A stretch of DNA of 64,000 bases from an uncultured Lachnospiraceae bacterium. GTDB lineage: Bacteria > Bacillota > Clostridia > Lachnospirales > Lachnospiraceae. Below are positions 19,912-33,506 of this stretch, piece by piece. The DNA is taken from the NCBI GenBank assembly GCA_947564735.1, contig CANOEC010000007.1, forward strand, positions 1 to 64,000. Reading direction: 5' to 3'. Each line of letters opens with the position of its first letter. Within the stretch, counting starts at the first letter, position 1. A program made the position numbers and the translations under genes. The notes under the pieces were generated by a model. That model saw nothing but the letters and a program-made list of their open reading frames with translations. It made no database searches and was not told where the DNA came from.

Positions 19912-19950
19912 TCAAAATTTACCAGCCTTTGCCGCTTCCTCGATAGAAAC
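19912..19950 (-). pseudogene. Displaced 3' end of the GGGtGRT gene (far side of the element)
   Basis: The minus strand reads SIEEAAKAGKF then TGA, matching the C-terminus SIEEAAKEGKF of the intact gene at 32.5 kb. It is the original chromosomal 3' end, cut off by integration. The last codons differ slightly because the element supplies its own copy at the other end. Confidence 0.85.
19931..19950. repeat. Attachment site, left copy (20-bp direct repeat)
   Basis: GCCGCTTCCTCGATAGAAAC, identical to 32515-32534 in the same orientation. The two copies bound the 12.6 kb element carrying a tyrosine integrase. The repeat is the 3' coding sequence of the GGGtGRT gene. Confidence 0.9.
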
Positions 19951-19986
19951 TGTCGCTATTGATTTTATAGGGTTTTAAGGGTTATT

Positions 19987-20007
19987 TGTGTGCTATCTGT
20001 GTGTTAC
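19987..20007 (+). repeat. Left arm-type repeats for the integrase
   Basis: Two copies of TGTGTGYTAY (19987-19996 and 19998-20007) spaced 11 bp, one helical turn. Four matching copies occur near the right attachment site. Such repeats next to att cores are normally bound by the N-terminal domain of tyrosine integrases. Confidence 0.65.
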
Positions 20008-20037
20008 ACACCTATATTTTTATCCATTTTTAAACGC

Positions 20038-20970
20038 TTACAAACACTTTCTTTTCCTTTGCTCAAGCATAGATTCTATTTGCTTCTTTCGTTCTTCATA
20101 CTCCGCTTGTATCTCTGCCCTACGTAAAGCAATATACTCTACCGTAGAAGTAAAACCATGCTCACTAAATTTGCTTACACTGTTCCTGTATGCTCCTGCT
20201 TCCACAATATCAAACTTTTCCAGTAGTTCACGCTTTGCCTTGCCTATCCGTAGCTTTCGCAACCCTTTTTCCTTAATCTGTCTTATACGGTCTATTGATA
20301 TGCCCTCGGCTCTGGCTACTGCCGCCATAGTCTGATTGTTTATAAATATCTCTCTTATAATATTGTTCTCTCTATCACTCGTAAAACGTGCTACAATCCC
20401 CCATAATTCACTTTTAGAGTGTTCAGCATATATTTTATCTATCGTTTCATTTTCAAGGCTAAAATCGGCTTGCACTGTATCGGCAAGTATCAAACTGTCA
20501 TCATCACTTAAAGGAGCATCTAAACTGGCTACCTCCTGCATCTGTATTTCCAGTTTCGGCAGCAGTCCTACAGATACGCTCATTCTATCAGCTATTTCTT
20601 TGTGCGTTGGTATTCTGCTTAGTTCCTGCTCTAACTCCTGTACGGTTTTCTTGTAACGTGCTATTTTCTGCCTTGTATGGCTCGGTATGCGTACAACAGA
20701 ACCGCACTTTTCAAGATAGCGTTGTACGGATTGCCTTATCCAGTATTCAGCATAGGTCATGAAACGCACATTTTCAGATGTTTCATAATGCTGTATTGCT
20801 TTCCATAACCCAAAATAACTTTCTTGCAACAAGTCCTCCATAGGTTCATAGGCGGCAAATGGCTTTATGGATTTCTTAATCAATGGCAGATTGTTTTCAT
20901 ACAGTAATTGCATATTATCCGTTACAGAATAACCGTTCCTAATTTCAGACACAATTTGCTCATTCGTCAT
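20038..20970 (-). CDS. Sigma-70 family RNA polymerase sigma factor
   Basis: 310 residues with region 2 (EDLLQESYFGLWKAIQHYE, then MTYAEYWIRQSVQRYL), region 3 (IPTHKEIADRMSVSV) and region 4 helix-turn-helix (TMAAVARAEGISIDRIRQIK), followed by a basic C-terminal extension of about 75 residues. It would direct RNA polymerase to its own promoter set. It is the last gene of the minus-strand block, next to the left attachment site, where it could switch on late element genes or host genes. A candidate antisense RNA lies over its leader. A sigma factor in a satellite is unusual. Confidence 0.85.
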   Translation of the reverse strand: MTNEQIVSEIRNGYSVTDNMQLLYENNLPLIKKSIKPFAAYEPMEDLLQESYFGLWKAIQHYETSENVRFMTYAEYWIRQSVQRYLEKCGSVVRIPSHTRQKIARYKKTVQELEQELSRIPTHKEIADRMSVSVGLLPKLEIQMQEVASLDAPLSDDDSLILADTVQADFSLENETIDKIYAEHSKSELWGIVARFTSDRENNIIREIFINNQTMAAVARAEGISIDRIRQIKEKGLRKLRIGKAKRELLEKFDIVEAGAYRNSVSKFSEHGFTSTVEYIALRRAEIQAEYEERKKQIESMLEQRKRKCL

Positions 20971-20997
20971 TGCAATGCACCTACCCCTTTGCTATAA
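20969..20997 (+). promoter_or_regulatory. Plus-strand promoter facing away from the sigma gene
   Basis: TTGCAA (20969-20974), 17 bp, TATAAT (20992-20997), lying across the start codon and leader of the minus-strand sigma gene. Confidence 0.55.
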
Positions 20998-21002
20998 TTT
21001 GA

Positions 21003-21062
21003 GTAGATGCAGGATATTAAGGGAAGTCGGCAAATAATTAAGGTAACGACTTCTCTTTTATT
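21003..21062 (+). ncRNA. Candidate small RNA antisense to the sigma-factor leader
   Basis: Predicted to start near 21003 from the consensus-like promoter just upstream and to end at a 10-bp hairpin (21020-21029 with 21047-21056, one G-U pair) followed by TTTATTTTAT. About 60 nt, with no reading frame. The sigma-factor mRNA leader is read from the opposite strand through the same bases, so base pairing or transcriptional interference is possible. Inferred only from promoter and terminator signals. Confidence 0.45.
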
Positions 21063-21255
21063 TTATCACAAAACCGCCTTTTTGTATATTTCAAAAAATT
21101 TTTCAGACTGGCAGCAGGACTAAGCCTTTTTGAAAATGCCCGTCAGAAAAGCCCACCTAGTAGGGGGTATGCGTGATTTTGTATAAAACCCCCACCTACC
21201 GCCTATAGCCAAAAGAAAAGGCAGCAGTCCATAAAGAACCCTGCCTAAACAATCT

Positions 21256-21933
21256 TTATTCTGCTTTCAATTCTCTCTTATACTTATAAAATGTATTCCT
21301 TGCAAGCCCTATTAGTTTCATACAATCCGCATCTGATAAAGTACCATTAAAATCTTTACTATGCTTCTGTATCTGCTTCTTTGCTTCAATAGATTTCTTT
21401 GTTGTCAGCTTTGCCCCCTGTTTCTGTCCTATCTGCTTACCATTCAATCTTGCTGTTTCTATACCCTCTTTTGTTCTCTGATGTAAGTCCTGTACTTCTT
21501 TCTCTGATTGCTCAAATGCAAGTCTTATCTGCTCTTTTGCAAGCGACATAAGATATTTATTCACGCCCTCTAAAATAAAATCTACATTTGTTCCAGTCAT
21601 TGATATATTACTCTCTAACGCTTTCTTATATGTACTTGTATTGATATGCGGCTCTTTCAGAAATATAAGCTCTATACCCTTATTATATAATTCTTCATAC
21701 AGACAAAAGCCCTCATCTGCATTCCTGCTCATTCGTGATACACTATCAAAAATAATGGTATCTCCTGTTTTTGCTTTCTTATACAGCTTATTCCATTCTG
21801 GTCTGTCCTGCTTTGTTCCTGTATATACTTCCTGTATTATCACAGCTTTATCATAGCTGCTCTTAATGTTTCGTACCTGTCTATCAATACTCTGTTGCTT
21901 TGTACTTATTCTGCAATATCCATACATACACAT
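21256..21933 (-). CDS. Resolvase/invertase-family serine recombinase
   Basis: About 225 residues. The N-terminal catalytic domain starts MYGYCRISTKQQSIDRQVRN, with the nucleophile Ser in YCRIS, then IIFDSVSRMSRN. A C-terminal helix-turn-helix follows (LSDADCMKLIGLARNTFYKY). I chose ATG 21933, which follows AGAGGGG. It is a small resolvase-type enzyme acting on short paired sites; it is distinct from the tyrosine integrase, so the element has two recombinases. Possible jobs are dimer resolution or inversion of a promoter. It is divergent from hicAB. Confidence 0.85.
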   Translation of the reverse strand: MCMYGYCRISTKQQSIDRQVRNIKSSYDKAVIIQEVYTGTKQDRPEWNKLYKKAKTGDTIIFDSVSRMSRNADEGFCLYEELYNKGIELIFLKEPHINTSTYKKALESNISMTGTNVDFILEGVNKYLMSLAKEQIRLAFEQSEKEVQDLHQRTKEGIETARLNGKQIGQKQGAKLTTKKSIEAKKQIQKHSKDFNGTLSDADCMKLIGLARNTFYKYKRELKAE

Positions 21934-22086
21934 AAGCAATACCCCTCTTTCAGTATCATTTCTATCGTTCGTCTGTTTTGATACTACTATTTTACATCTT
22001 ATTATTGTTGTTGTCAATAGCTTTTGATACAGTTTTATATGACATTACTTTTAATACTTTTCTTGAAGATTTTCCCCATAATCTCA

Positions 22087-22115
22087 TTGACAAATAGTAC
22101 TATATATGATACTAT
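22087..22115 (+). promoter_or_regulatory. hicAB promoter with palindromic operator
   Basis: TTGACA (22087-22092), 17 bp, TACTAT (22110-22115). An interrupted palindrome TAGTA-N10-TACTA (22095-22114) fills the spacer and the -10, so a dimeric repressor (probably HicB) bound here would block transcription. Confidence 0.65.
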
Positions 22116-22140
22116 ATATAAAAGAAAGGAGATACTCACA

Positions 22141-22368
22141 GTGCCAAATGTAAAAAAACTAATTGAGAAAATGAAACAACAGCCAAACGGAATGCGACCA
22201 GAAGAAATAGACAAGGTTTTAGCAGCATACGGTTATGTTCCGGCAAGGCAAAAAGGAAGTCATAAGCATTATCTGAATAAAGAAACGGGCGATTTGATAA
22301 CAATAAAACAAGAAAACCCATTAAAAAAAGCTTATGTCGTAGATGTTCTGAATAGGATAGGGGAATAA
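22141..22368 (+). CDS. hicA: HicA-type mRNA interferase toxin
   Basis: 75 residues from GTG 22141, preceded by AAAGGAG. It has the HicA fold: N-terminal helix (VKKLIEKMKQQPNGMRPEEI), then GYVPARQKGSHKHYL with the catalytic His in GSHKHY, and a C-terminal strand-helix ITIKQENPLKKAYVVDVLNR. HicA toxins cleave mRNA and stop growth. The antitoxin gene follows 47 bp downstream. In an island this can stabilise the element or act in defence. Confidence 0.85.
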   Translation: MPNVKKLIEKMKQQPNGMRPEEIDKVLAAYGYVPARQKGSHKHYLNKETGDLITIKQENPLKKAYVVDVLNRIGE

Positions 22369-22415
22369 TCCCCTTATCCTAGAATGATGCAGAAAACAGA
22401 AAGGAGCATGAAAGC

Positions 22416-22760
22416 ATGGAAGTAAAAGATTATATGAAATTGCCTTATACACGATTGGTACAGGAAATGAATGATGAAAGCGGACATTATTTTTACGGCA
22501 GGATTTTAGAACTTGACGGATGCCAAAGTACCAGCGATACGCTTGAAGGGCTATATGAAAGCCTTAATGAAGCAATGGAGGGATATATTGAAATAAAAAT
22601 AGAAAATAATCTCTCTATCCCCATTCCAGAAACATCAAGCAATTACAGCGGAAAATTTGTTGTAAGGCTTCCAAAATCTCTACACCAAAGATTAGCCATT
22701 GAAGCAGAAAAAGAGGGCGTAAGCCTTAACCAGTTAGCATTATACAAATTGGCACTTTAA
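22416..22760 (+). CDS. hicB: HicB-type antitoxin
   Basis: 114 residues: a partially degraded RNase H-like domain (YFYGRILELDGCQSTSDTLE, SLNEAMEGYIE) that binds the toxin, and a C-terminal ribbon-helix-helix (GKFVVRLPKSLHQRLAIEAE, GVSLNQLALYKL) for DNA binding. It neutralises HicA and probably represses the shared promoter through the palindrome at 22095-22114. A ribosome site GAAAGGAG precedes ATG 22416. Confidence 0.88.
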   Translation: MEVKDYMKLPYTRLVQEMNDESGHYFYGRILELDGCQSTSDTLEGLYESLNEAMEGYIEIKIENNLSIPIPETSSNYSGKFVVRLPKSLHQRLAIEAEKEGVSLNQLALYKLAL

Positions 22761-22770
22761 TAAATACACA

Positions 22771-22825: not shown

Positions 22826-23177
22826 TTAATGCAAACCGTTAGGGAAGTAATAGACTGCTGCCCTCTGTGGCTCTACAGGCTTGAAATAATCGTCCGGGTT
22901 CTCTCCTGCCTCTGTCAATTCCTGCCGACATTGTTCTATCCTCTGTAAAAGTTCTTCCCGGCTCTCCCCGGTTATCGACATTACATCATCTAAAGAGAAA
23001 TACTCATGCTCATTAAATGCAGATGCAAGGCTCATTCTCAAACCGCTGTAGATTGCTTCTAATGATAAATCATAGTCATTTATTCCGCTTATCTATGCTA
23101 TGTTCTAATTCTGCTCTGGTAATGCCATATTTCCCATAATTCGCAAGCAGATTGTTTATAATCGTTTCTTTATCCAT
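22826..23177 (-). pseudogene. Broken small element gene (about 115 codons)
   Basis: The intact-looking C-terminal frame (22826-23041) reads RMSLASAFNEHEYFSLDDVM and ends YYFPNGLH. Upstream, a separate start at 23177 gives MDKETIINNLLANYGKYGIT, then an in-frame TAG, after which the same frame continues ISGINDYDLSLEAIYSG. A run of four T at the join to RMSLAS shifts the frame by one. It reads as a single protein broken by one stop and one base insertion. If instead the C-terminal part is used alone from TTG 23041 or ATG 23035, it has no good ribosome site. The family is of unknown function. Confidence 0.5.
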
Positions 23178-23187: not shown

Positions 23188-23469
23188 CTATATTGCTATG
23201 TTTCGCCCATCAGCAAGAATAAAAGCCGCAGGTATCTTTCCTAGCAAGTGTATCTGATAGCTTGTCCTGCTATTTCTAATTATTTGTAAATCTACATATT
23301 GCCCTATTGTGTATTCTTCCGGCATAGATACCTTTACCTTGCCTTGTTCATCAGAATTTAGCCACAACTGAAAATACAAGTGATTATCTTTAATATCCAA
23401 TATTCGATATGCTTTCACATTGTTTTGATTCCGCAAAGGTGTGGTGTTCTGTTCTCTTTTACATTCCAT
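23188..23469 (-). CDS. Small element protein, function unknown
   Basis: 93 residues, ATG 23469 behind GAGGT. Mostly beta-rich with alternating polar and hydrophobic residues (NHLYFQLWLNSDEQGKVKVS, YQIHLLGKIPAAFILADGR). No motif I recognise. It is close-packed in the minus-strand block, six bp after the next gene upstream. Confidence 0.6.
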   Translation of the reverse strand: MECKREQNTTPLRNQNNVKAYRILDIKDNHLYFQLWLNSDEQGKVKVSMPEEYTIGQYVDLQIIRNSRTSYQIHLLGKIPAAFILADGRNIAI

Positions 23470-23475: not shown

Positions 23476-23877
23476 TTACCTCGCTATATTTATTTTGTTT
23501 TTATGCTTACTTTCGCCTAACTTTCTATTCCGCGATTCTCGTTCTCGGTCTAGTTCCTGCTGGTGTCGCTTCCGGTACTGCTGATATAATTCCGGGCATT
23601 GCATAGCAAATTGTGAAACTTCTTTCATTGTTCCGCTTTCATTGCTATTCATCTTTTCTTTGTACCACTCATAACTTTTTGTGCCTGCTTCCATTTCTGA
23701 TACCTCCGTTTTCTCGATTTTAATTCTGCCACTTAATAACCCATTGCTATAATCAAAAAGTGCTGTTCTGTCAGATTCAGATAGCTTTTCAAGTGCCGCT
23801 ATCCGCTCCGGGCTGTTTGGGGGTGTATTATAAACTTTTTCATAAAGCCTTGATATTCTTTTCGCATCATAATTCAT
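23476..23877 (-). CDS. Small element protein, paralogue A
   Basis: 133 residues from ATG 23877, eight bp after the stop of its paralogue. The N-terminal 50 residues (RLYEKVYNTPPNSPERIAAL, ALFDYSNGLLSGRIK) match paralogue B. The rest is charged and helical with a very basic C-terminus (RKRHQQELDRERESRNRKLG) suggesting nucleic acid binding. Function unknown. Confidence 0.6.
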   Translation of the reverse strand: MNYDAKRISRLYEKVYNTPPNSPERIAALEKLSESDRTALFDYSNGLLSGRIKIEKTEVSEMEAGTKSYEWYKEKMNSNESGTMKEVSQFAMQCPELYQQYRKRHQQELDRERESRNRKLGESKHKNKINIAR

Positions 23878-23884
23878 TTTCGCC

Positions 23885-24229
23885 TTATCTCGCTTTCTCT
23901 TTTTCAAGCCTTTGCTGATAATATTCATAAAGGCTCGGATTGCTCCTCTTAAACTCAACCAACATTTGATATGTTCCGCTCTTTACTAACGCTTTCTTAA
24001 AATCTTCATAGCTTTCAATTTTCCTTGTTTTGTTCATAGTGCATACCTCGCTTTTCTTTGTTTGGTTTTCGGGTTTCTTTATTCTGCCGGACATCAGCCC
24101 AATATCAAAATCATAAAGTGCCGCACTGTCTGCTTCGCTTAATTCTGCCAGCCTTGCTTCACGTTCCGGGCTGTTTTTTGGTGTGGAATAGACATAATTA
24201 TAAATCTTTACCATTCGTTCATAGTCCAT
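23885..24229 (-). CDS. Small element protein, paralogue B
   Basis: 114 residues from ATG 24229 (ribosome site GAGGT). N-terminal KIYNYVYSTPKNSPEREARL and ALYDFDIGLMSGRIKKPE align with the neighbouring gene; both keep the pattern Y-x-T-P-x-N-S-P-E-R and G-L-x-S-G-R-I-K. The C-terminal part (ESYEDFKKALVKSGTYQMLV) is also related to the neighbour's. The pair is a tandem duplication that has diverged. Function unknown. Confidence 0.6.
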   Translation of the reverse strand: MDYERMVKIYNYVYSTPKNSPEREARLAELSEADSAALYDFDIGLMSGRIKKPENQTKKSEVCTMNKTRKIESYEDFKKALVKSGTYQMLVEFKRSNPSLYEYYQQRLEKEKAR

Positions 24230-24255: not shown

Positions 24256-24516
24256 TTATATTGTCGGCATATACACAATCGGACAGCCTTTAACTTCCAA
24301 TCTGTAAAATGCTTTTAATTCGTCTGACATACGCCTTTTCATTAACGACATTTCGGGATAAATTCTCCTAAGTACAGGACGAACCGTATATAGAGCAAAA
24401 CTATATTTCTCACATACCTTTGTACAAAATTCAGTTTCCAGAATATAACCCTGCTGCCTAATCGTACTGTTAATTTCTTCTTTCAAAACTTCTTCAACAT
24501 GGTTTTTAAATGTCAA
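24256..24516 (-). CDS. Small element protein, function unknown
   Basis: 86 residues beginning at a TTG (24516) one base after the small-terminase-like stop, with GGGGAGG upstream. Helical, with YSFALYTVRPVLRRIYPEMS in the middle, possibly a helix-turn-helix. Close coupling to the packaging-type gene suggests a related role, but nothing more can be said. Confidence 0.55.
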   Translation of the reverse strand: MTFKNHVEEVLKEEINSTIRQQGYILETEFCTKVCEKYSFALYTVRPVLRRIYPEMSLMKRRMSDELKAFYRLEVKGCPIVYMPTI

Positions 24517-24517: not shown

Positions 24518-25048
24518 TCAATCTTCCTCCCCTCTAAGCTGTGGCAAAGTGCTTATACTGCCCTCTGGCATATCTCCAGAACCGTCCAATCTTGGTAATT
24601 GGTCTGCTGTCAATATATGGTGTTCTTTTTTGTTCGGTATGCTTTCCTCAATGCTGATAGCATCTTTATAAGACAACCAATTTTTCATTAAGAAGATACC
24701 GCTTGGAGGGCTGATTTTGCCGCCTAACATAGCTTGTTCAATAAATGCTCCTATAAATGCCTTTGCGGACTGTATCAGTTCTTTACATTCCTTACTGCAA
24801 TTTGTTCCCTTATTCCAGTTAAATAATGTTGTCCGGCTAATATGCAATGCCATACAAAGACTTTCTATGCCCGGTCTGATACTGGACTGTTGGCAGAATG
24901 AAAAATATTCTTCAATCCTCTGCTTGATTTCCTCGTCTGTTTCTGGCTTGCCCCTGTCGTGCAACTGCTTTAATGATGTAACTATTTCCTGTACTGCTGA
25001 CGGCTCCATATCGTCAATCTGCCCTTGTGGATAACTGTTTTTTCTCAT
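24518..25048 (-). CDS. Small terminase subunit-like (gp3 DNA-packaging type) protein
   Basis: 176 residues. A helical DNA-binding segment PGIESLCMALHISRTTLFNW is followed by CKELIQSAKAFIGAFIEQAM and GIFLMKNWLSYKDA, the pattern of phage small terminases of the gp3 packaging type. Small terminases select the DNA to be packaged. No large terminase is encoded in the element, as in SaPI/PICI satellites, which redirect a helper phage's enzyme. The C-terminal tail contains ILTADQLPRLDG, which recurs in the repressor at 29 kb. The ATG at 25048 has GAGGT. An HNH nuclease gene is just upstream. Confidence 0.65.
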   Translation of the reverse strand: MRKNSYPQGQIDDMEPSAVQEIVTSLKQLHDRGKPETDEEIKQRIEEYFSFCQQSSIRPGIESLCMALHISRTTLFNWNKGTNCSKECKELIQSAKAFIGAFIEQAMLGGKISPPSGIFLMKNWLSYKDAISIEESIPNKKEHHILTADQLPRLDGSGDMPEGSISTLPQLRGEED

Positions 25049-25132: not shown

Positions 25133-25378
25133 TCACGCCCTCTTGCGGTTGTAGTAAGCGTGTATCTTCTTATGGCACGAACCGCAAAGAGTACAAAGGT
25201 CTGTCAGCACATTCTCATTACCTAATCTGGCATAAGTAATATGATGTACTTGTACGCTCCTAATCCTGTTTATCGGTCTGCCGCACATCACGCAACCGCC
25301 ATCTATGGCTATGCGTTCTTGCTTCTTAGCTTCCCATTCATCACTACGCATATAATCTTTATACTGCTGTGTCTGCAT
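25133..25378 (-). CDS. HNH endonuclease
   Basis: 81 residues with a complete HNH fold: CVMCG and CGSCHKK zinc cysteines, the VHHITY catalytic histidine pair and the final H in KKIHAYYN. Free-standing HNH proteins next to small terminases are needed for cutting and packaging in many HK97-like phages. It overlaps the upstream gene by 20 bp and precedes the small-terminase-like gene by 84 bp, so a packaging role is the best guess. Confidence 0.85.
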   Translation of the reverse strand: MQTQQYKDYMRSDEWEAKKQERIAIDGGCVMCGRPINRIRSVQVHHITYARLGNENVLTDLCTLCGSCHKKIHAYYNRKRA

Positions 25379-25637
25379 TTTTCATCATCTCCTTATAAAT
25401 CCGTTCCAGTTCATCAATGACCGCCAACAATAAAGCAATCGCCAATTTACGGTTATCATACTTCTTTGCTATCTGTCCGCTTTCATCAACTACCGCTTCC
25501 CAGTACGCATCATCTGTCTGCACATTTGAATATTTCTTGTGAAAATTCCAAACATCTTGATACAATCCCCAATACTCATTTTTAAATGAATCTCTGCGAA
25601 TATTTTCTTGTATCATATCAATGTCTTTGTTAGTCAT
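25359..25637 (-). CDS. Small element protein upstream of HNH
   Basis: 92 residues, ATG 25637 with GAGGT. Helical and acidic (WGLYQDVWNFHKKYSNVQTD, KLAIALLLAVIDELERIYKE). It resembles the small helical proteins often found between replication and packaging genes of Firmicutes phages; function unknown. Translationally coupled to the HNH gene. Confidence 0.6.
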   Translation of the reverse strand: MTNKDIDMIQENIRRDSFKNEYWGLYQDVWNFHKKYSNVQTDDAYWEAVVDESGQIAKKYDNRKLAIALLLAVIDELERIYKEMMKNADTAV

Positions 25638-25694
25638 ATTGATACCTCACTCTCTGAAATTCCGTTACAAAAACCGTAAAATTGCTTACATTCA

Positions 25695-25831
25695 TTTTGC
25701 ACACTTCATTTTATTAAAGTGCTTGAAACCGTTGATTTTACTGGATTTGTGCAAAATGTGCATTTCAAATGTGACATTCTAAAGTTAAACCCTTATAGGA
25801 AATTTACATTTACTTTGCACAAATTGCACAT
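25695..25831. other. Iteron-like repeats, putative replication origin
   Basis: Directly behind the primase-helicase stop (25845) there are five GTGCA/TGCAC sites: TTGCAC at 25697, GTGCAA at 25749, GTGCAT at 25758, TTGCAC at 25815 and TTGCAC at 25824, most extended by A or T runs, in an AT-rich stretch. In SaPI-type satellites the origin lies beside the replication initiator gene and consists of such iterons around an AT-rich melting zone. No gene occupies 25638-25844. Confidence 0.5.
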
Positions 25832-25844
25832 TTCCATTTTTTCT

Positions 25845-28139
25845 TTAGTCAAAAGGTAGCGTTTCTTGCCCCTCGTACTCTACAAAATCTGTTTCCACCG
25901 TATAGCCCTTTACGATATTTTTTACGGTCTTGCCCTCCACCGTTCCACTATTCGCAAATAAGCCCTTAGTTTTAAGTTCTGCAAAGAAATTTGACTTGTT
26001 TTCTACACCGAAACCATTTTCTTCGCACCACTTTGAATAAATCTCGTAAACATCTTTTGCTTTGCTGTTTTTGCCCGTCTTGGTTAAACATTCATTGATA
26101 AAATTACCTATTTTGTCACTGTCCGTCCTGTAAGTATCGGTTGCGGTCTGCACTGCTTGCGGTGGCTCTAATCCCTGCTGCCTGTATAACCGCAATCCCT
26201 CAATACACCAATTCAAAATGCCGGATAGTTCCTGTTTATCTCTCAATCGGTTCTTTAAGTCTTTGTCCTGCTCATGCGGTTCAAAATGTCGGTCAAAACT
26301 GATAACATTTATCCTGCCGGAACTGAAAACCGTATCATCTGTAATCGTTGGTAAATAATTTGTGTTTATCACTAATTTAAACTTAGGAATAAAGCTAAAT
26401 TCCCTCTGGTGAAGATGCCTTGCTGTGATGGAATCCCTACCCAACAAGGATTTTAATAAAGCTGTATCAAACAACATTCTTTTAGGCGGCTCACTTGCAT
26501 TACAGAACCTACACCCTGCCAACCTTGCTATATCTCCACTTGCTTGTCTGCTGTCAAGATTTTGCTTTACTGCAAGGCTTTCCGGCTTCATTGTCAGCGC
26601 ATAATCGCCCAGCAGATATATCAGAGTTTCGCAAAACGTACTTTTTCCGTTTCGTGTCGTACTTCCATAGAGAATAAAACAAGTTTCCTGCTCTGTGTTC
26701 CCGGTCAATGAAAGCCCTGCTATCTTTTGGAGATACAATATTTTCTCCTTATCGTCCTGCATGATTTCCAATAGAAATTTCTTCCATTCTTTGCAATCGG
26801 CGGCAGGATTATATTCAGCATTGCATATCTTTGAAAGAAGCATATCCGGGTTATGTTCCACAAACTTAGGATTGTCCTCGGATAAATCAAGTGTACCGTT
26901 CTGTACATTTAAAAAATAATCATTTGTATCTAACTGCTCATTATCAAAAAAGTACACATCTTTGCTGTCCTGTAGCATATTGTTTCGATTTCTGATATTG
27001 CAAAGTGCCGCTACTGCCTTTAAATATTTACCCTCTGTATCAACATTTACCGCATATCTGAGGAGCGCATCTGACAGGGCTTTTGCTGATGCCTTCGCAC
27101 TCAACCCCTCAATATCATCAACCCACTTTTTACCGTCATATCTCATAAAATCTTTTCGTGACGGATTATATCTGTGCTTGTCCTTAAAAACAGTTGCAAA
27201 CAACCTACCATTACCTTTATCCGTTGTTTCAAATCGCTCTGCGTGCAAATCCCTCAAAACCTGCTCCAAAGTCCTGTCCTGCTGCCCCTGTGCCTTTATA
27301 GGGGTGTCGTGTTTTGCCTCCCTTACGGTTTCTTTAACGGTATTCTGTTCCTGCTGTAGCAACTGTTCAAACTCCTGTTTGCTATGCCCTGCACTAAAAT
27401 AGTCTGTTATATCCGCTTTGGGCGTGTCCGTCATGGGTACAATGATTTTGCTACTCTTTGCAACTGCTTTAATGTCATTCTGGATAGTTTCAGCAACACG
27501 CTTTCCCGGCTCGTCATTATCTGCCAATATGAAAACATCTGCTCCCTGCACTAATGTAGCAAAGTCTGACTGCCAATCATTCACACCGCCATAAGTAAAA
27601 GCTGTGTAACCTTGTTTTATCAGCGTATCAACATCTTTTTCGCCCTCTGGTATAAAAATAGGTCTGCTCTCTGTAATCGCTTTATTTATGGCTTGTAGGC
27701 TTCCATAGATAGCCTTGTAACTTTTTCTGCCTACATCATGCAAACCGTATGTAAAACGGTCATTCTGCAATTTGCCATAGATGATTTTCTTTCCCTCGCA
27801 CCTAATCTTTGTAAAGGCATAAGCACCGTTAATAGAAACGTAGTTGTAAACCGCTTCAATTTTACGTTTCTCTCTGCCCTCTACATAGGCTCGCCAGTTT
27901 GGGCTTCTCGGCTCTGCATCATAAAAGGTATCTTTCTTTTCAAGTCCAACTGCTCCTAAGATTTCATCAACTCTACACCCTGCATGACAGTAGAACAATG
28001 TACACTTTCTGCCTTTTGTGATTGTCAATGAAGCGTGTTTATCGTCATGTGCCGGGCATTGACATTGTGATTTATCTCCATATCGCTTTTTCATCTTAAA
28101 GTATCGCAAATTGTTTTCGTATATCTCATTAGCGGTCAT
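25845..28139 (-). CDS. P4-type DNA primase-helicase
   Basis: 764 residues. N-terminal CHC2-like zinc finger (C28, H31, C51, C55), TOPRIM primase domain (PIFIPEGEKDVDTL and FILADNDEPGKR), D5-N region, then a superfamily 3 helicase with Walker A FILYGSTTRNGKSTFCETL and a D5/P4 C-terminal domain. It can prime and unwind element DNA, giving autonomous replication after excision. This is the replication gene expected of P4-like and PICI satellites, though prophages and integrative plasmids also use it. It overlaps the next upstream gene by 4 bp, and iteron-like repeats lie just past its stop. Confidence 0.92.
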   Translation of the reverse strand: MTANEIYENNLRYFKMKKRYGDKSQCQCPAHDDKHASLTITKGRKCTLFYCHAGCRVDEILGAVGLEKKDTFYDAEPRSPNWRAYVEGREKRKIEAVYNYVSINGAYAFTKIRCEGKKIIYGKLQNDRFTYGLHDVGRKSYKAIYGSLQAINKAITESRPIFIPEGEKDVDTLIKQGYTAFTYGGVNDWQSDFATLVQGADVFILADNDEPGKRVAETIQNDIKAVAKSSKIIVPMTDTPKADITDYFSAGHSKQEFEQLLQQEQNTVKETVREAKHDTPIKAQGQQDRTLEQVLRDLHAERFETTDKGNGRLFATVFKDKHRYNPSRKDFMRYDGKKWVDDIEGLSAKASAKALSDALLRYAVNVDTEGKYLKAVAALCNIRNRNNMLQDSKDVYFFDNEQLDTNDYFLNVQNGTLDLSEDNPKFVEHNPDMLLSKICNAEYNPAADCKEWKKFLLEIMQDDKEKILYLQKIAGLSLTGNTEQETCFILYGSTTRNGKSTFCETLIYLLGDYALTMKPESLAVKQNLDSRQASGDIARLAGCRFCNASEPPKRMLFDTALLKSLLGRDSITARHLHQREFSFIPKFKLVINTNYLPTITDDTVFSSGRINVISFDRHFEPHEQDKDLKNRLRDKQELSGILNWCIEGLRLYRQQGLEPPQAVQTATDTYRTDSDKIGNFINECLTKTGKNSKAKDVYEIYSKWCEENGFGVENKSNFFAELKTKGLFANSGTVEGKTVKNIVKGYTVETDFVEYEGQETLPFD

Positions 28140-28330
28140 TTATTCCACCGCCCTTCCAAAATTCCTCTGATATGTTCGGCTTCCTCGTCAAGGGCATCCA
28201 TTTTTCGTTGTATATACTTGTAACAACACTCATTGTCGCTATGCTCCGTCTGCAATCGTTCATAAATCTCACGTTCTTGCATTAACGCCTTTTGCTGTTT
28301 CCTTAGTCGATATCTTCTCAAAATATTCAT
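28136..28330 (-). CDS. Small coiled-coil element protein
   Basis: 64 highly charged residues (RRYRLRKQQKALMQEREIYE, IQRKMDALDEEAEHIRGILE) predicted as a coiled coil. It overlaps both neighbours by 4 bp, so it is translated together with the primase. Function unknown. Confidence 0.65.
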   Translation of the reverse strand: MNILRRYRLRKQQKALMQEREIYERLQTEHSDNECCYKYIQRKMDALDEEAEHIRGILEGRWNK

Positions 28331-28551
28331 TCTGCTGTACCCCCTTTATAAAGGAATCCCGTTTCCTCATAAAATTTCTTAGGGTAAATCAGATAAGAAT
28401 ATTGGCGGCTCTTTGGTGTCCTACGGTATGCAATTCCCCAGTTTACCGCACCGCTTTGAAGCAACAGCCTTACCGTTTGACAATCTACCTTTAAAGCCTT
28501 AGAGGCGACAGCAACAGGGATATTTGCACACTCAAAAATAGGTTCATTCAT
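28327..28551 (-). CDS. Excisionase-like helix-turn-helix protein
   Basis: 74 residues from ATG 28551, behind GGTGG; a GTG four codons further up is possible. The pattern PVAVASKALKVDCQTVRLLL then YRRTPKSRQYSYLIYPKKFY is that of winged-helix excisionase or MerR-like DNA-binding proteins. Its place at the head of the block, divergent from the repressor, fits an excisionase or early activator. Confidence 0.65.
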   Translation of the reverse strand: MNEPIFECANIPVAVASKALKVDCQTVRLLLQSGAVNWGIAYRRTPKSRQYSYLIYPKKFYEETGFLYKGGTAE

Positions 28552-28565
28552 ATCTGCCACCACCT

Positions 28566-28739
28566 TTACTCTGTTGCCAACCTGTCAATGATTGCCCTGA
28601 TTTCGGCTTTCTTTTCCTCTGACAATTCAACTCTCAATTTCCTGCTGAAATTTCCATCATTGATACCAAGTTCTATTGCTATCTGCCATAAACGCACATT
28701 TCTTTTGTTTGCATATTCTCTTATATCTTTATTACACAT
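28566..28739 (-). CDS. Small helix-turn-helix protein at the head of the replication block
   Basis: 57 residues from ATG 28739, directly behind GGAGG. It contains a clear helix-turn-helix (VRLWQIAIELGINDGNFSRK) and an acidic tail (LSEEKKAEIRAIIDRL). It is the first gene of the minus-strand block, facing the repressor gene across a 207-bp control region. Likely a Cro/AlpA-like switch regulator. Confidence 0.75.
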   Translation of the reverse strand: MCNKDIREYANKRNVRLWQIAIELGINDGNFSRKLRVELSEEKKAEIRAIIDRLATE

Positions 28740-28946: not shown

Positions 28947-29657
28947 ATGAATATTTATGAAAAATTAAGACGTAGCCAGCGCAAAAATAATAATGAAATG
29001 GAAAAAGAAATGACCATTGCAGAACTTGTAAAGAAATTAAATAAAGAGATTGACGGAAAGAAACTAGATAGAAATGTCATAAACAGAATTGAAGCCGGAC
29101 AGGAACCAACTTTAACGCAATTAGTGGCATATTCTAAAGTTTTTAATGTTTCAACTGATTATATACTTAATAATGTATCTCCAAAATCAGATACCGAAAC
29201 CATTAAATCTATTGCTGATTATTTAGGTTTATCTGATGTAACTATAGAAGAAATAATGAAACTAAAAACCGATTATAAACTGATTTTTGATAAAATGATT
29301 TCAAGGTACTGTTTATTGCTTATCCTGTCAGAAATTAGAAACTTATTAGGATATAATTACTTGAAGCCTCATTTAACTCTAAAATTTGATGAAAAGTGTA
29401 AATGGCTTGACGGTGCAGATATTGACCAGTTTTTAAACAATGCTGTTAGTGATAATGCTGTTTCTGTTTTTTTTAACGAAGCTGTAAACAAAAGAATTGA
29501 ACAAATTGTTAAAAATACGATGGAAGATGAAGAATTGCAAAAATATTTTGGAGAATTAGATAAACATTCCAAAATACAAGGAATATTACGAGCAGACCAG
29601 CTACCTAGATTGGGTGACTTTAAAAGCAAAGGAAGTGATGACAATGAAACTACCTAA
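28947..29657 (+). CDS. XRE-type repressor of the element
   Basis: 236 residues. The N-terminal domain is a Cro/CI helix-turn-helix with an unusual insert (MTIAELVKKLNKEI, RNVINRIEAGQEPTLTQLVA, VFNVSTDYIL), the rest helical with no peptidase or ImmA motif. It sits in the stl position of a PICI, upstream of the integrase and divergent from the replication block. There is no LexA-like cleavage site, so induction by a helper-phage protein rather than by RecA is plausible. The C-terminus contains ILRADQLPRLGD, shared with the small-terminase-like protein. Confidence 0.8.
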   Translation: MNIYEKLRRSQRKNNNEMEKEMTIAELVKKLNKEIDGKKLDRNVINRIEAGQEPTLTQLVAYSKVFNVSTDYILNNVSPKSDTETIKSIADYLGLSDVTIEEIMKLKTDYKLIFDKMISRYCLLLILSEIRNLLGYNYLKPHLTLKFDEKCKWLDGADIDQFLNNAVSDNAVSVFFNEAVNKRIEQIVKNTMEDEELQKYFGELDKHSKIQGILRADQLPRLGDFKSKGSDDNETT

Positions 29658-29693: not shown

Positions 29694-30896
29694 ATGGCAC
29701 TGTTGAAATGTCCAGAGTGTAAACATGAAGTATCAGACAAGGCTTCTTCCTGTCCTCATTGCGGCTATCCCATAAATAGTCCTACCAGTACAAAACCACG
29801 TATCAGAAATGGAAAGCCCACAAAGCTGCCCAATGGGTACGGAACAATCTACAAACTACCCGGAAAGCGTTCAAAACCTTTTAGGGCTGTCAAAACTGAT
29901 AAATGGGTACTGGATGCCGATACAGGCAAAAGCAAACAGATACGCTTCACTATCGGCTACTATGCTACTCGTGAAGAAGCTATGATTGCCCTTGCAGATT
30001 ACAACGAAAATCCGTATGACATTAAAGCGGATAGCATCACATTTTCGGAAGTATATGAGAGGTGGAATGAGGGGTATTTTCCCACTCTCTCCAATCCGTC
30101 CAGCATCAGAACAATTACGGCGGCATACGCTTATTGTAACGGTCTTTATGATATGCGGATGAAAGATATAAGAGTATCGCATTTGGAAGGCACTATATTA
30201 AATGCAGATGTCGGAGATAGCACAAAAGGCAGAATCAAAAGCCTGTTCAATATGATGTACAAATATGCTGTAGCCCATGATATTGTGGATAAAGATTATG
30301 CTTCTGTAATGTTCGCAAATGGCACTCCAATCAAAAGAGAACGCACAAAAGAAGTTATACCTTTTACAGATGAAGAAATTCTGCAATTATGGGATAGCAA
30401 GGACTTGATTCCTTTTGCCGATATGGTATTGATAGGAATATACAGCGGATGGCGGCCACAAGAATTATCTATATTACAAATTGCGGACATTGACCTTGAA
30501 GCAGGAACTATGAAAGGTGGTTTAAAAACAGATGCAGGAAAAAATAGAATTGTTCCTATTCATCCAATAATAAAACCGTTAATTGAAAACCGCATAGAGG
30601 AAGCCGCTACTCTGCAATCTGAATATCTTTTTAACGATTTAAACGGACAGCAGGGTACATATATGACCTATGACAAATGTCGCAAGAGATTTCAAAAAGT
30701 CATGGATAGACTAAAAATGAAACATCGCCCACATGAAACACGACACACATTTATTACAAAAGCAAAATCATGTGGCGTTGATGAATACATCTTAAAACTG
30801 ATTGTTGGACACGCCATTGAGGATATTACCGAAAAAGTATATACCCATAGAACAATGGAACAATTAAAATCCGAAATGGAGAAAATCACAAAATAG
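29694..30896 (+). CDS. int: Tyrosine integrase with an N-terminal zinc ribbon
   Basis: 400 residues. An N-terminal zinc ribbon (C6-x2-C9, C20-x2-C23 in CPECKH and CPHCGY) precedes the arm-binding and core-binding domains. The catalytic domain has Arg in SGWRPQEL, HETRHT, the second His in VGHA and the nucleophile Tyr in KVYTHR. It would integrate and excise the element at the 20-bp repeat. The zinc ribbon is not part of the standard phage integrase. It follows the repressor by 36 bp with AAAGGAAG upstream, in the same operon. Confidence 0.93.
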   Translation: MALLKCPECKHEVSDKASSCPHCGYPINSPTSTKPRIRNGKPTKLPNGYGTIYKLPGKRSKPFRAVKTDKWVLDADTGKSKQIRFTIGYYATREEAMIALADYNENPYDIKADSITFSEVYERWNEGYFPTLSNPSSIRTITAAYAYCNGLYDMRMKDIRVSHLEGTILNADVGDSTKGRIKSLFNMMYKYAVAHDIVDKDYASVMFANGTPIKRERTKEVIPFTDEEILQLWDSKDLIPFADMVLIGIYSGWRPQELSILQIADIDLEAGTMKGGLKTDAGKNRIVPIHPIIKPLIENRIEEAATLQSEYLFNDLNGQQGTYMTYDKCRKRFQKVMDRLKMKHRPHETRHTFITKAKSCGVDEYILKLIVGHAIEDITEKVYTHRTMEQLKSEMEKITK

Positions 30897-30965: not shown

Positions 30966-31052
30966 GACACCCAGTAATAAGCAACCACGCAAATTAAAGG
31001 GAGTATGTTCATTGTAGCATACTTTCCCACCAAAAGAAAGGAAGATTTTATA

Positions 31053-31292
31053 ATGAGCAAAAATGATATGCTAGACACTGTTTTTGATGCAACTTGCAAA
31101 CTGGAACTTATGCAGACTATGTTAGGCGTTTTAATTAACATGGTAGAAAAGATAGATGTTAAGACACCAGAACAGGCTATGGAGTTTGCTGTCAACCAAA
31201 ATGTAATAGACGATTTTCTCCATATCACGCTTGACGGAGTGAATTATGCCACACAAATTCTGAATGACTTGCAGAAAGGCGGTGTTGAATAA
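31053..31292 (+). CDS. Cargo protein 1, function unknown
   Basis: 79 residues from ATG 31053 (ribosome site AAAGGAAG). Entirely helical (LDTVFDATCKLELMQTMLGV, HITLDGVNYATQILNDLQKG), with no known motif. Its stop overlaps the start of the next gene (TAATG), so the two are coupled. It lies between the integrase and the right attachment site, the usual place for satellite cargo. Confidence 0.65.
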   Translation: MSKNDMLDTVFDATCKLELMQTMLGVLINMVEKIDVKTPEQAMEFAVNQNVIDDFLHITLDGVNYATQILNDLQKGGVE

Positions 31293-31861
31293 TGGGCGCA
31301 TACTACGTTTCGTTTGTAAACCGTGATATTCCCTATATGTACGCTGTTTCCGCTGATGAATTGGGTTCAGATGATATTTTTTATCTCGAACATTTGCACC
31401 ATGTAGAGCCAAAAGATTTTGTACTTGTGAAACATTCAAGGGAGTGTATTATTCTCAATAAAGCTTTGGGCGATAAGTTAAAAGAAGCCGAGAGCATTAT
31501 CACCAAAGTTATGCGGTCAAAATATCTGCCCGAAAAGCTGATAGACAAGCTTGCTGAATTGACGGATTTTGAATCATCATGTATTTTGCAGAAATATTAT
31601 TGTGATTGGAGAGACGAACTCCGAAAGAGGGAATTAAACAGACAGGCTATGTCAATGCTGAAATCAGCTAAATCATTGCGTATCAGTTGGAAAGTTAAGC
31701 GTAACAAGGAAATTATCAAAGAACTTTTTGACATTGGATATGGAATATATAAAAAAGAGGCTGTTTGCGATTATCAACAAGGAGCAGAAAACGCCTTTAT
31801 GTATGGCTATCTTTTGGGCGTTCAATCGCAGAAAGGTGGTGTTGCGAATGAGCAGAACTGA
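31292..31861 (+). CDS. Cargo protein 2, function unknown
   Basis: 189 residues. The first 55 (YYVSFVNRDIPYMYAVSADE, DFVLVKHSRECIIL) look like a beta-rich domain; the remainder is helical and basic. A Cys/Trp-containing stretch QKYYCDWRDELRKREL is conspicuous. No nuclease, ATPase or membrane motif is visible. Translationally coupled upstream and overlapping the next gene by 14 bp. A phage-interference role is only a positional guess. Confidence 0.65.
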   Translation: MGAYYVSFVNRDIPYMYAVSADELGSDDIFYLEHLHHVEPKDFVLVKHSRECIILNKALGDKLKEAESIITKVMRSKYLPEKLIDKLAELTDFESSCILQKYYCDWRDELRKRELNRQAMSMLKSAKSLRISWKVKRNKEIIKELFDIGYGIYKKEAVCDYQQGAENAFMYGYLLGVQSQKGGVANEQN

Positions 31862-32015
31862 CATAGCAAAAGCAATAGCCGAAGATTTATTAAATAATGA
31901 AGTACTGGACGAAAACAACTTTTCCTATGATGCCGTTGCCATTCTTGAATATGTCCAGAATATCATTTTAGAGCATTTAAAAGACTATTCTTTACTGTCT
32001 GGCACAATATTCTAA
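31848..32015 (+). CDS. Cargo protein 3, small acidic protein
   Basis: 55 residues from ATG 31848, behind AAAGGTGG and inside the end of the preceding gene. Acidic and helical (SRTDIAKAIAEDLLNNEVLD, YDAVAILEYVQNIILEHLKD). It could be a partner of cargo protein 2. Function unknown. Confidence 0.6.
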   Translation: MSRTDIAKAIAEDLLNNEVLDENNFSYDAVAILEYVQNIILEHLKDYSLLSGTIF

Positions 32016-32101
32016 GCAAAAGGGAAATAACCGTTACATAAAAACGAATTAGAGGGTATCTGTACAATGCAGATGCCCTTTTCTCATTCTAAAAGAGAAA
32101 A

Positions 32102-32130
32102 ACCGCTACCCTCCTATTTGGGGTAACGGT
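32102..32130 (-). terminator. Terminator after the 45-residue membrane peptide
   Basis: Minus-strand arms ACCGTTACCCC and GGGTAGCGGT followed by TTTTCTCTTTT, 8 bp beyond the stop of the small gene. Confidence 0.65.
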
Positions 32131-32137
32131 CTCTTAG

Positions 32138-32275
32138 TCAATGCCTTTTCAGAAAAGCAACTACTGCCATAGCAATATTCGCTGTCAATGAAACAAGCAA
32201 TCCCATAGCTAGAATTTTCTTACCCTTTCTTTCATGCCTCAACATCTCCATCGCTAAGCCTTCTGGTCTTTCCAT
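32138..32275 (-). CDS. 45-residue single-helix membrane peptide
   Basis: ATG 32275 follows GGAGGAAACTATA. An N-terminal charged part (MERPEGLAMEMLRHERKGKK) is followed by one membrane helix (LLVSLTANIAMAVVAFL) and a basic end. It has its own terminator and lies alone, antisense to the cargo direction, next to the right attachment site. It could be a superinfection or toxin-type peptide; no antisense RNA was identified. Confidence 0.6.
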   Translation of the reverse strand: MERPEGLAMEMLRHERKGKKILAMGLLVSLTANIAMAVVAFLKRH

Positions 32276-32383
32276 TATAGTTTCCTCCTTTTTCATATTC
32301 TGGCTATATTATCGCACCTAACAGTACCAAAAACAATGTCATGTTTTTGTCATAAAATTATCACGTTTTTATCATTCCATTTT

Positions 32384-32429
32384 TGTGTGCTACCTCATGT
32401 GTGCTACCTGTGTGTTACTTGTGTGCTAC
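32384..32429 (+). repeat. Right arm-type repeats for the integrase
   Basis: Four copies of TGTGTGYTAC at 32384, 32398, 32409 and 32420. The last three are spaced exactly 11 bp. They match the two copies beside the left attachment site. Confidence 0.7.
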
Positions 32430-32441
32430 GTGGCAAAATTT

Positions 32442-32479
32442 AAGGCTATCGCCGACAACCTATATCAACGATAGCCCTT
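32442..32479 (-). terminator. Element-supplied terminator for the GGGtGRT gene
   Basis: Minus-strand arms AAGGGCTATCG and CGATAGCCTT followed by AAATTTTG, 17 bp after the stop codon. It lies inside the element and replaces the native terminator stranded at 19834-19867. Confidence 0.65.
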
Positions 32480-32495
32480 GATTTTACTGTATTTC

Positions 32496-33506
32496 TTAGA
32501 ACTTTCCTTCTTTCGCCGCTTCCTCGATAGAAACCGCAACCGCAACCGTAGCGCCAACCATCGGGTTGTTACCCATACCGATCAAGCCCATCATCTCAAC
32601 GTGTGCCGGAACGGAAGAAGAACCTGCGAACTGTGCATCGGAATGCATACGTCCTAAAGTATCCGTGAAACCGTAGGATGCAGGACCCGCAGCCATGTTA
32701 TCGGGATGCAGTGTACGACCTGTACCACCGCCGGATGCAACGGAGAAGTATTTCTTGCCAGCCTCTGTTCTCTCTTTCTTATATGTACCTGCTACCGGAT
32801 GCTGGAATCTTGTCGGATTGGTGGAGTTACCTGTGATGGAAACATCTACATTCTCCTTCCACATAATTGCAACACCTTCCGGAACGGAATTTGCACCATA
32901 GCAGTTTACCTTGGAACGAAGACCGTCAGAATATGCAATTCTGTCAACTTCTTTTACTTCGTTCGTGTAAGGGTCATACTCTGTCTCAACGAATGTAAAT
33001 CCGTTAATTCTGGAAATAATCTTAGCTGCATCTTTTCCAAGACCATTCAGGATGACACGAAGAGGTTTCTGACGAACCTTGTTAGCCTTCTCAGCGATAC
33101 CAATTGCACCCTCTGCTGCTGCAAAGGACTCATGACCTGCCAAAAATGCGAAACAATCTGTCTCCTCCTCCAATAACATCTTACCCAGATTACCGTGACC
33201 AAGACCTACCTTACGGGTATCTGCAACGGAACCGGGAATGCAGAATGCCTGAAGTCCCTCACCGATTGCTGCCGCAGCGTCAGCCGCCTTCTTGCAGTCT
33301 TTCTTGATTGCAATTGCAGCGCCTACCGTATAAGCCCAGCAAGCATTCTCGAAACAAATCGGCTGAATTTTCTTAACCTGCTCATATACATCTAAGCCGG
33401 CATCTTTTGTAATTTTCTCAGCTTCTTCGATAGAAGAAATACCATAACTATTTAAAACGGAATTGATTTTGTCAATTCTTCTTTCATATGATTCAAATAA
33501 AGCCAT
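32496..33506 (-). CDS. GGGtGRT protein
   Basis: 336 residues containing the name-giving SGGGTGRTLHPDNMAAGPA. This family is conserved in Clostridia and related anaerobes and is usually encoded beside a NifU-like scaffold, as here (gene upstream on the same strand). The function is unknown; glycine-rich loops and LGHGNLGKMLLEEE suggest a nucleotide or cofactor binding fold. The ATG at 33506 follows AGGAGG. The last seven codons are supplied by the integrated element, which keeps the C-terminus KEGKF close to the native KAGKF. Integration therefore spares the gene. Confidence 0.85.
   Translation of the reverse strand: MALFESYERRIDKINSVLNSYGISSIEEAEKITKDAGLDVYEQVKKIQPICFENACWAYTVGAAIAIKKDCKKAADAAAAIGEGLQAFCIPGSVADTRKVGLGHGNLGKMLLEEETDCFAFLAGHESFAAAEGAIGIAEKANKVRQKPLRVILNGLGKDAAKIISRINGFTFVETEYDPYTNEVKEVDRIAYSDGLRSKVNCYGANSVPEGVAIMWKENVDVSITGNSTNPTRFQHPVAGTYKKERTEAGKKYFSVASGGGTGRTLHPDNMAAGPASYGFTDTLGRMHSDAQFAGSSSVPAHVEMMGLIGMGNNPMVGATVAVAVSIEEAAKEGKF
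32515..32534. repeat. Attachment site, right copy (20-bp direct repeat)
   Basis: Identical to 19931-19950. Here it forms codons of the intact GGGtGRT gene; the final codons and stop (32496-32514) belong to the element. Confidence 0.9.

Follow-up and report, generated by a model that had tools for sequence, protein, structure and literature searches.

The phage satellites closest to the locus described here are the phage-inducible chromosomal islands (PICIs) of the SaPI type. According to the available part of PMC6092414, integrase and repressor are read one way in these islands and primase, origin and small terminase subunit (TerS) the other, over ~12–15 kb and with no head or lysis genes. 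A tape-measure gene links the PLE of Vibrio cholerae, as covered in the available part of PMC12987554, to some relatives of the locus. The window analysed is a stretch of 64,000 nucleotides from an uncultured member of the Lachnospiraceae. These bacteria are a major gut family, and a limited search of the open-access literature found no description of a satellite family in them. Two further systems enter the comparison, namely cf-PICIs, whose content includes HNH and TerS, and P4, which has a primase-helicase of comparable D5 type.

The island shares the gene order and size (12.6 kb) of SaPI-type PICIs, with no head or lysis genes found; integrase and regulator stand opposite a replication module with its origin, and for xis there are HTH-like candidates only. 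It differs from them in that a sigma factor and a serine recombinase are common parts, an HNH gene lies beside terS, the ends of GGGtGRT and rpsI genes serve as attB, and a private site is scattered over the island. Likeness to PLE is confined to the tape-measure gene of two relatives (loci L018 and L041); host and gene set are others, and the window island is without this gene. HNH and TerS are shared with cf-PICIs, whereas the capsid and large terminase (TerL) genes of their own that mark cf-PICIs were not found in the islands scanned. The D5-type primase-helicase recalls P4-type satellites, but the island has its own TerS, and no match carried the name of a capsid-size or late-activator protein of P4. 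The relaxase or conjugation gene that would mark an integrative mobilizable or conjugative element was absent from the island ORFs scanned.

Boundaries and gene map

The island is integrated at 19931–32534 of the window (12.6 kb between repeats) and duplicates the 3′ end of a host gene through its end repeats. The 20-bp direct repeats seen in an earlier, sequence-only reading of this DNA are exact (20/20 nt, 19931–19950 versus 32515–32534) and lie inside a longer pair of 35 nt with 83% identity (19916–19950 and 32500–32534), both copies of which encode VSIEEAAK.GKF-stop, the terminus of gene 32496–33506. This gene, for which there was no NCBIfam match, encodes what we take, from its motif, to be a GGGtGRT protein. 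A clear empty site is found in one same-genus relative. The features are given below with positions and strand; entries for the 93-, 160-, 114-, 86-, 92- and 64-aa genes rely on Pfam/PHROG scans and comparison with relatives.

19916–19950, no strand: att repeat at the far end, copying the host gene 3′ end (repeat comparison)
20038–20970, minus: sigma-70 factor with Sigma70 r2, r3 and r4 and a C-terminal extension (Pfam)
20971–21085, minus: sigma gene leader with a promoter-like box, a 5′ hairpin and a hairpin covering the ribosome-binding site (covariation weak)
21256–22017, minus: serine recombinase of the resolvase/invertase type (PF00239, 4e-22), its start probably downstream of the annotated TTG
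22024–22368, plus: HicA-like toxin, cargo (4e-7), the real start probably later than annotated
22416–22760, plus: HicB-like antitoxin, cargo (3e-15)
22826–23041, minus: conserved 71-aa gene (83–94% in most islands having it)
23188–23469, minus: 93-aa gene
23476–23958, minus: 160-aa gene
23885–24229, minus: 114-aa gene
24256–24516, minus: 86-aa gene
24518–25048, minus: small terminase subunit (TerS), body type A (PHROG 606)
24581–24616, minus: TerS tail peptide ILTADQLPRLDG (C-terminal comparison)
25133–25378, minus: HNH nuclease (3e-9)
25359–25637, minus: 92-aa gene
25638–25844, no strand: candidate replication origin with TGTGCA iterons (repeats in the gap)
25845–28139, minus: primase-helicase of D5 type (D5_N, 1e-22)
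28136–28330, minus: 64-aa gene
28327–28563, minus: 78-aa protein, a relative of which adjoins TerL in phage locus L119
28566–28739, minus: 57-aa protein, HTH-like by eye
28947–29657, plus: HTH repressor (profile scans)
29583–29618, plus: repressor tail peptide ILRADQLPRLGD (C-terminal comparison)
29694–30896, plus: tyrosine integrase (2e-14)
31005–31861, plus: accessory gene pair (95 aa, 189 aa) following the integrase (ORF list, comparison with relatives)
32496–33506, minus: host gene serving as attB, present in 25/31 same-genus genomes
32500–32534, no strand: att repeat within the host gene 3′ end (repeat comparison)

Profile scans bear out the earlier layout, with integrase and repressor on one strand and primase-helicase, HNH nuclease and TerS on the other; the primase-helicase, called P4-type there, is of D5 type, the nuclease is confirmed, and the iteron-like repeats correspond to five hexamers (TGTGCA/TGCACA) within the 207 bp behind the primase gene. 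The profile search proposed for the small-terminase-like protein also came out in its favour, with PHROG 606 'terminase small subunit' at 2e-9 and Pfam GP3_package just below cut-off (1.7e-6, 28.6 against 29.4 bits), and gave no NCBIfam match at E ≤ 0.01. As to the divergent excisionase-like HTH genes, HTH-like genes do lie on the opposite strand, but the PHROG matches of 28327–28563 and 28566–28739, only to families of unknown function, leave an excisionase identity unproven.

Profile scans and a resident helper

The scans took in 22 island ORFs altogether, with Pfam and PHROGs each run on 20 of them (E ≤ 1), and no large terminase, capsid, relaxase or conjugation family was met. The claim that structural genes are lacking holds for the window island but not for the whole family, two relatives having a tape-measure gene. 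Weak PHROG rows taken as chance would have made the sigma factor a portal (0.008), the 92-aa protein a virion protein (0.024) and the HNH protein a TerS (an HNH-containing 'terminase small subunit' PHROG, 4e-5). No known interference gene was named among the matches of the scanned ORFs, PADLOC gave no defence cargo at E ≤ 0.01 (10 proteins), Rfam gave no match at the gathering threshold, and megablast of the island against the phage collection gave none either. The sigma factor has counterparts in 171 records of this collection, all <60% identical. Since the window genome is without PHROG-38 TerL at E ≤ 1e-10 and has only a weak PHROG-2 match (4.5e-4), no resident helper of these types is seen.

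Relatives of the island

Primase and TerS occur together in 14 of the 23 relatives fetched. The search of related genomes proposed in the earlier reading found that the gene order recurs, at two attB genes (GGGtGRT and rpsI ends), and the arrangement is therefore beyond chance; the TerS–HNH module is conserved as well. The sigma factor and the resolvase, previously regarded as unusual extras, are instead common parts of the family, the former being a single ORF at 12 of 17 far ends and split or missing in 5 of the 17 islands; no publication on satellite sigma factors was found in the literature searched. HicAB, listed with them, is indeed cargo, yet recurs in relatives L012 and L026. PHROG-38 TerL is absent from all nine satellite virus records, and TerL, capsid and portal are absent among the matches listed for 51 island proteins of the family. 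A search for relatives whose island also holds large terminase and capsid genes, a finding that would have spoken for a decayed prophage, came up with none. One relative, L163, assembles as a circular contig; it has a ParA gene and gave no blast match to the family's integrases.

A tail common to TerS and the repressor

The TerS tail word L[ST]A..LP[KR][LF] is present in 17 of 28 satellite-like TerS proteins (11 are without it), on two divergent TerS bodies. Phages with TerL have it as well, on TerS-like proteins that were initially picked out by means of this word; 5 of 10 such proteins are without it. These phage proteins have no PHROG match and their genes do not adjoin TerL; PHROG-38 TerL is present in 8 of the 12 records holding one. 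A second tail word, LSDVRK, is common to satellite L025 and phage L173. Two distant records of the phage collection match TerS, and a PDB sequence search with TerS and the product of the gene behind terS returned chance-like rows only. The TerS of lambda binds TerL through its C-terminal part (available part of PMC6739421); judged from sequence, the satellite tail is probably a docking peptide for the large terminase.

The window repressor ends in ILRADQLPRLGDFKSKGSDDNETT, and its C-terminal word, L[RS]A..LP[KR]L, is a near-match to the TerS tail word. The tail persists in each of the five repressors of this kind, of which two are 99%, two 89% and one 51% identical; the last (L041) has a different N-terminal half. 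The word A[ADE][EQ]LP[KR]LG occurs at five places in 397 genomes, against three for the reversed control; three of the five are satellite places, one being the window repressor, and of the other two, one falls within an unrelated protein and one has no ORF to match. Codon identity between the terS and repressor tails is not above chance (P 0.07, 0.47, 0.95 and 0.33), so that the likeness is kept at the protein level and is not a recent copy; recent gene conversion was rejected on this ground. No repressor was found in viral_contigs, a search that reaches close relatives only, since the L041 repressor was also missed.

A site scattered over the islands

A 15–17-bp site, ACGGTT-N2-4-TGTAACG, recurs across islands, with 94 matches inside and 1 in flanks; looser matching weakens the enrichment (367 in islands versus 127 in flanks at three mismatches). 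The window sites are:

20642–20658, plus: 0 mismatches, in the sigma gene
20920–20936, minus: 0 mismatches, in the sigma gene
25663–25677, minus: 0 mismatches, preceding the 92-aa gene
27325–27339, plus: 1 mismatch, in the primase gene
30127–30141, plus: 1 mismatch, in the integrase gene

A site common to satellite and helper was rejected, 13 phage or phage-like loci giving 0 matches with one mismatch allowed and 4 with two; five phage records gave 0 matches. DNA-level constraint on the site in the sigma gene was weak (rank 6 of 77 windows only). The reader of the site is perhaps the 57-aa HTH-like protein.

A probable satellite and the alternatives

The island is probably a PICI-like phage satellite of Lachnospiraceae, packed via a helper with a PHROG-38-type TerL. 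The assignment to PICI/SaPI-like satellites, already made in the sequence-only reading, is supported by gene order, att duplication, a relative's empty site, its own replication module and TerS, by the lack of any TerL or capsid gene found and by the same order in relatives. That the island is functional or recent has indirect backing only, from intact ORFs and one circular family relative. Such a satellite would be held silent by its own repressor until phage infection brings derepression, excision and replication by the primase-helicase, presumably from the origin that gene order and iterons place behind the primase gene. Satellite DNA would be marked for packaging by TerS and HNH. Docking of the TerS tail on TerL of a PHROG-38-type helper would bring the satellite into the heads of that phage. 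The serine recombinase might conceivably resolve multimers, and the sigma factor might perhaps switch satellite or helper genes. The satellite virus records without TerL, the tail words common to satellite and phage, and the lambda parallel speak for this course of events. Counting against it are the lack of a resident helper of the types looked for, the satellite and phage proteins without the tail word, the way in which the phage proteins came to light, their lack of a PHROG match and their distance from TerL, and the islands in which the sigma factor is split or missing.

That TerS and HNH are phage-type genes and that two relatives have a tape-measure gene would suit a decayed prophage having lost its head and tail genes; this is very improbable, however, given that relatives integrated at different attB genes share the compact order, that the nine satellite virus records are without TerL and that TerL, capsid and portal are absent among the matches listed for the 51 island proteins. 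The serine recombinase, HicAB and the circular L163, with its ParA gene and no blast match to family integrases, could point to an integrative mobilizable element or integrated plasmid, which is hardly probable at all in view of the conserved TerS–HNH module and of island ORFs scanned without relaxase or conjugation families.

The common tail leaves room for an addition to the satellite reading, in which TerL or another binder of the TerS tail captures the repressor tail and frees the satellite as heads fill. The resemblance of the two tails (ILRADQLPRLGDFKSKGSDDNETT and ILTADQLPRLDG), the retention in all five repressors, the rarity of the word and its upkeep at the protein level argue for it, as does the release of SaPI Stl repressors by phage proteins through mimicry (available part of PMC6695447). 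It is nevertheless on balance unlikely, the word having been defined after sighting, the five repressors amounting to about two independent lineages and other repressor types of the family being without the word. Moreover, TerL is usually a late protein, which would make it a strange trigger for release early on. It is doubtful that the tail is instead a signal for a host factor or protease, such as a degradation tag: its brevity, its place close to the C-terminus and its presence on a pair of unrelated proteins would suit a tag, but no clear case outside satellites and phages was met in 397 genomes, and different tail words are common pairwise to satellite and phage TerS, as would be expected of a changeable partner in the phage rather than of a constant one in the host. 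The combined proposal, a repressor acting as terminase sensor by wearing the TerS docking peptide, together with a private island-wide site whose reader silences or organises the island, is tentative and rather improbable.

Implications

The family now has att sites, a core gene set and a candidate helper type. The recurrence of its private site is a strong regularity. Should the repressor tail indeed sense terminase, the induction cue would not be among those described for SaPI repressors in the available part of PMC6695447. If the TerS tail is a terminase dock, helper range would be readable from a dozen residues.

Gene content of the island and its family

The Pfam and PHROGs scan covered 22 ORFs of the island (window 19931–32534) overall, 20 with each library, and named a sigma-70 factor, a serine recombinase, HicA, HicB, TerS, an HNH nuclease, a D5-type primase-helicase, an HTH repressor and a tyrosine integrase. 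The identity of TerS (24518–25048, minus strand) is based on PHROG 606 (2e-9) and a Pfam match slightly below its cut-off; NCBIfam gave no match. Neither Pfam nor PHROGs assigned a function to the small genes behind terS, the genes for 57, 64 and 78 aa or those behind the integrase. A portal PHROG match of the sigma factor (0.008) was taken as chance. The sequence-only reading had seen no large terminase, and none was found among the 22 ORFs, nor any capsid or relaxase. Judged by its parts, the island would work like a PICI.

A primase search of genome contigs returned 23 loci. Primase and TerS occur together in 14 of them (L012, L013, L014, L016–L021, L023–L026, L031), whose record titles name Lachnospiraceae or genera presumed to belong to that family; the rest consist of cut contigs, fragments and loci where a primase but no TerS was seen. 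Among genomes sampled from the host's family, primase matches occur in 10/299 (E ≤ 1e-60) and TerS profile matches in 12/397 (E ≤ 1e-5), both counts including the host's own genome and distant, partly phage-like cases. The common gene order is integrase, repressor, the 57-, 78- and 64-aa genes, primase, the 92-aa gene, HNH, TerS, small genes, cargo, serine recombinase and sigma factor.

Large terminase and capsid genes in the relatives' islands would have pointed to a decayed prophage. Nineteen related elements hold 57 unassigned ORFs, 44 of which were scanned together with seven other island proteins (51 in total). The families listed (25 of 41 PHROGs, all 24 Pfam) included tape measure, ParA, ERCC4 nuclease, helicase and transposase; TerL, capsid, portal and relaxase did not appear among them. 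Likewise, PHROG-38 TerL is absent from all nine satellite virus records (E ≤ 1e-10). The claim that structural genes are lacking stands for the window island, where none was found, but fails for two relatives: a tape-measure protein (PHROG 1535) is encoded between terS and the recombinase in L018 (7e-53) and L041 (2e-32). These genes (L018:15208–19485, L041:6982–10627) each follow a 132-aa gene without a family match. Tape-measure genes are shared with PLEs, satellites for which an excerpt of PMC12987554 already describes such genes and chimeric tails, so L018 and L041 are a further instance.

Exact end repeats were looked for in 17 contigs and found in L163 (141 bp), L039 (127 bp) and L064 (70 bp). 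L163 (IMG/VR 3300013414_000984), by its repeat a circle of 16,429 bp, encodes relatives of HNH (47%), TerS (26%), recombinase (90%) and sigma factor (64%), carries a ParA gene, has no blast match to the family's integrases and is a putative plasmid-like satellite. A circular relative is thereby documented; excision of the window island is not.

Integration site and an empty site in a relative

The proposed direct repeats are real: 19931–19950 and 32515–32534 are identical over 20 bases and belong to a 35-nt pair at 83%. The gene at 32496–33506 (minus strand) has the C-terminus VSIEEAAK.GKF-stop, which each copy encodes, so insertion leaves the host gene with a proper end. This is presumably the GGGtGRT gene, so named from its motif; it has no NCBIfam match and is present in 25 of 31 same-genus genomes. 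Twelve loci were listed in the empty-site comparison, one being the window itself. In genome G427 (L152), the GGGtGRT end lies 133 bp from sequence matching window 19695–19438, beyond the far repeat, which reads as a clear empty site. In G432 (L162), a weak alignment runs over the gene end into window 19944–19874 (71 nt at 75%), and the remaining nine listed loci show no alignment to the far flank past the repeat. Att duplications in GGGtGRT characterize seven islands (window, L012, L017, L018, L019, L025, L026); L013, L020, L021 and L023 have repeats of 13–80 nt at or near the end of another gene, named 30S ribosomal protein S9 by NCBIfam (4/4 tested).

A scattered site specific to the elements

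The pattern ACGGTT-N2-4-TGTAACG (at most one mismatch), found and defined in these same data, has 94 occurrences across 17 islands (213 kb), many of these being the same site in related islands, versus one in 168 kb of flanks; none lies in the 13 phage or phage-like loci. When three mismatches are allowed, the contrast drops to 367 in islands versus 127 in flanks. The window alone has five sites inside the island and one outside, the expectation for the island being 0.03 from Markov shuffles (average of 60 runs) and 0.02 from letter-permuted motifs (60 motifs).

Scattered sites in the window island
20642–20658, scattered site
20920–20936, scattered site
25663–25677, scattered site
27325–27339, scattered site
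30127–30141, scattered site

Sites lie on both strands, within and between genes. The integrase and primase genes contain sites, the sigma gene contains two, and others lie behind the integrase operon, ahead of an unassigned gene behind terS, and 22–26 nt ahead of the 92-aa gene (nine islands where the script named that gene next). Across 15 host genomes, the looser ACGG-N4-6-TGTAACG and its reversed control have similar frequencies, island clusters aside. The pattern is described as an element-specific putative binding site. Loci L022 and L034, with a related primase and 92-aa gene, no TerS seen and an ERCC4-like gene by eye, each have one exact copy ahead of an HTH-like gene.

The sigma factor and its leader

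The sigma factor, which matches SigA/RpoD regions 2–4, had been called an unusual extra, a view not borne out by the 17 elements read to the far end. It is a single ORF in 12 (window, L012, L019, L021, L023, L025, L026, L031, L040, L041, L081, L083), split in three (L016, L017, L020) and absent from two (L013, L018), and in L013 an acetyltransferase-like gene (16660–17475) stands behind the promoter box that precedes the sigma gene elsewhere; it is therefore common but dispensable. Outside this count are the distant L042, L043, L064, L065 and L163 (sigma gene at 28–64% identity). The leader (window 20971–21085, minus strand, and relatives) combines a promoter-like box with two hairpins, one at the 5′ end and one covering the ribosome-binding site. 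Since compensatory changes are few (3/20 consensus pairs) and the covariation term is small, the predicted fold is plausible, not proven.

Tails of TerS and of the repressor

Island TerS comes in two bodies, the other being 27–29% identical to the window's and related to it by profile (4e-14). In L012, the body is exchanged while the neighbouring primase, 92-aa, HNH and 86-aa genes are 92–100% identical to the window. Both bodies end in the tail L[ST]A..LP[KR][LF], present in 17 of 28 distinct TerS of satellite-like loci, with a partial version in L042 and L043.

The window repressor ends in ILRADQLPRLGDFKSKGSDDNETT, and L[RS]A..LP[KR]L stands there in all five repressors of its type, among them that of L041, which has another N-terminal half; other repressors of the family are without this word. 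The likeness to TerS is at the protein level, not the codon level. The word A[ADE][EQ]LP[KR]LG, defined after being seen, with few and related cases, is rare: five places in 397 genomes (two satellite TerS, the window repressor, one inside an unrelated protein and one in no matching ORF) versus three for its reversed control.

Scanning viral contigs with the back-translated TerS tail gave ten stretches: three satellites (L035, L040, L106), one unrelated protein (L107) and six with a protein of 183–217 aa (L101, L102 and L104, the same phage protein; L103, L105, L108). This phage protein has no PHROG match and its gene does not adjoin TerL, but it aligns by profile to both TerS bodies (7e-9 and 2e-6, partly via the tail). 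A search with other conserved peptides gave 12 loci and ten distinct proteins, whose tails are exact in four, variant in one (L169) and different in five; PHROG-38 TerL was found in 8/12 records containing this phage protein, three of the eight being one phage. A second tail word, LSDVRK, is common to satellite L025 and phage L173. In phage locus L119, the gene directly ahead of TerL (5797–6015) encodes a protein related (63%) to the 78-aa protein of the island.

In the host genomes, PHROG-38 TerL reached the threshold (E ≤ 1e-10) in three of 18, strongly in G426 and weakly in G414 and G416, and was not found in the other 15, including the window's; in the latter, the sole genome searched beyond PHROG-38, PHROG 2 TerL matched weakly. 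In an excerpt of PMC6739421, the C-terminal part of lambda TerS binds TerL. From this precedent, the sharing of tails between satellites and phages and the records containing TerL, we infer that the TerS tail would be a TerL dock.
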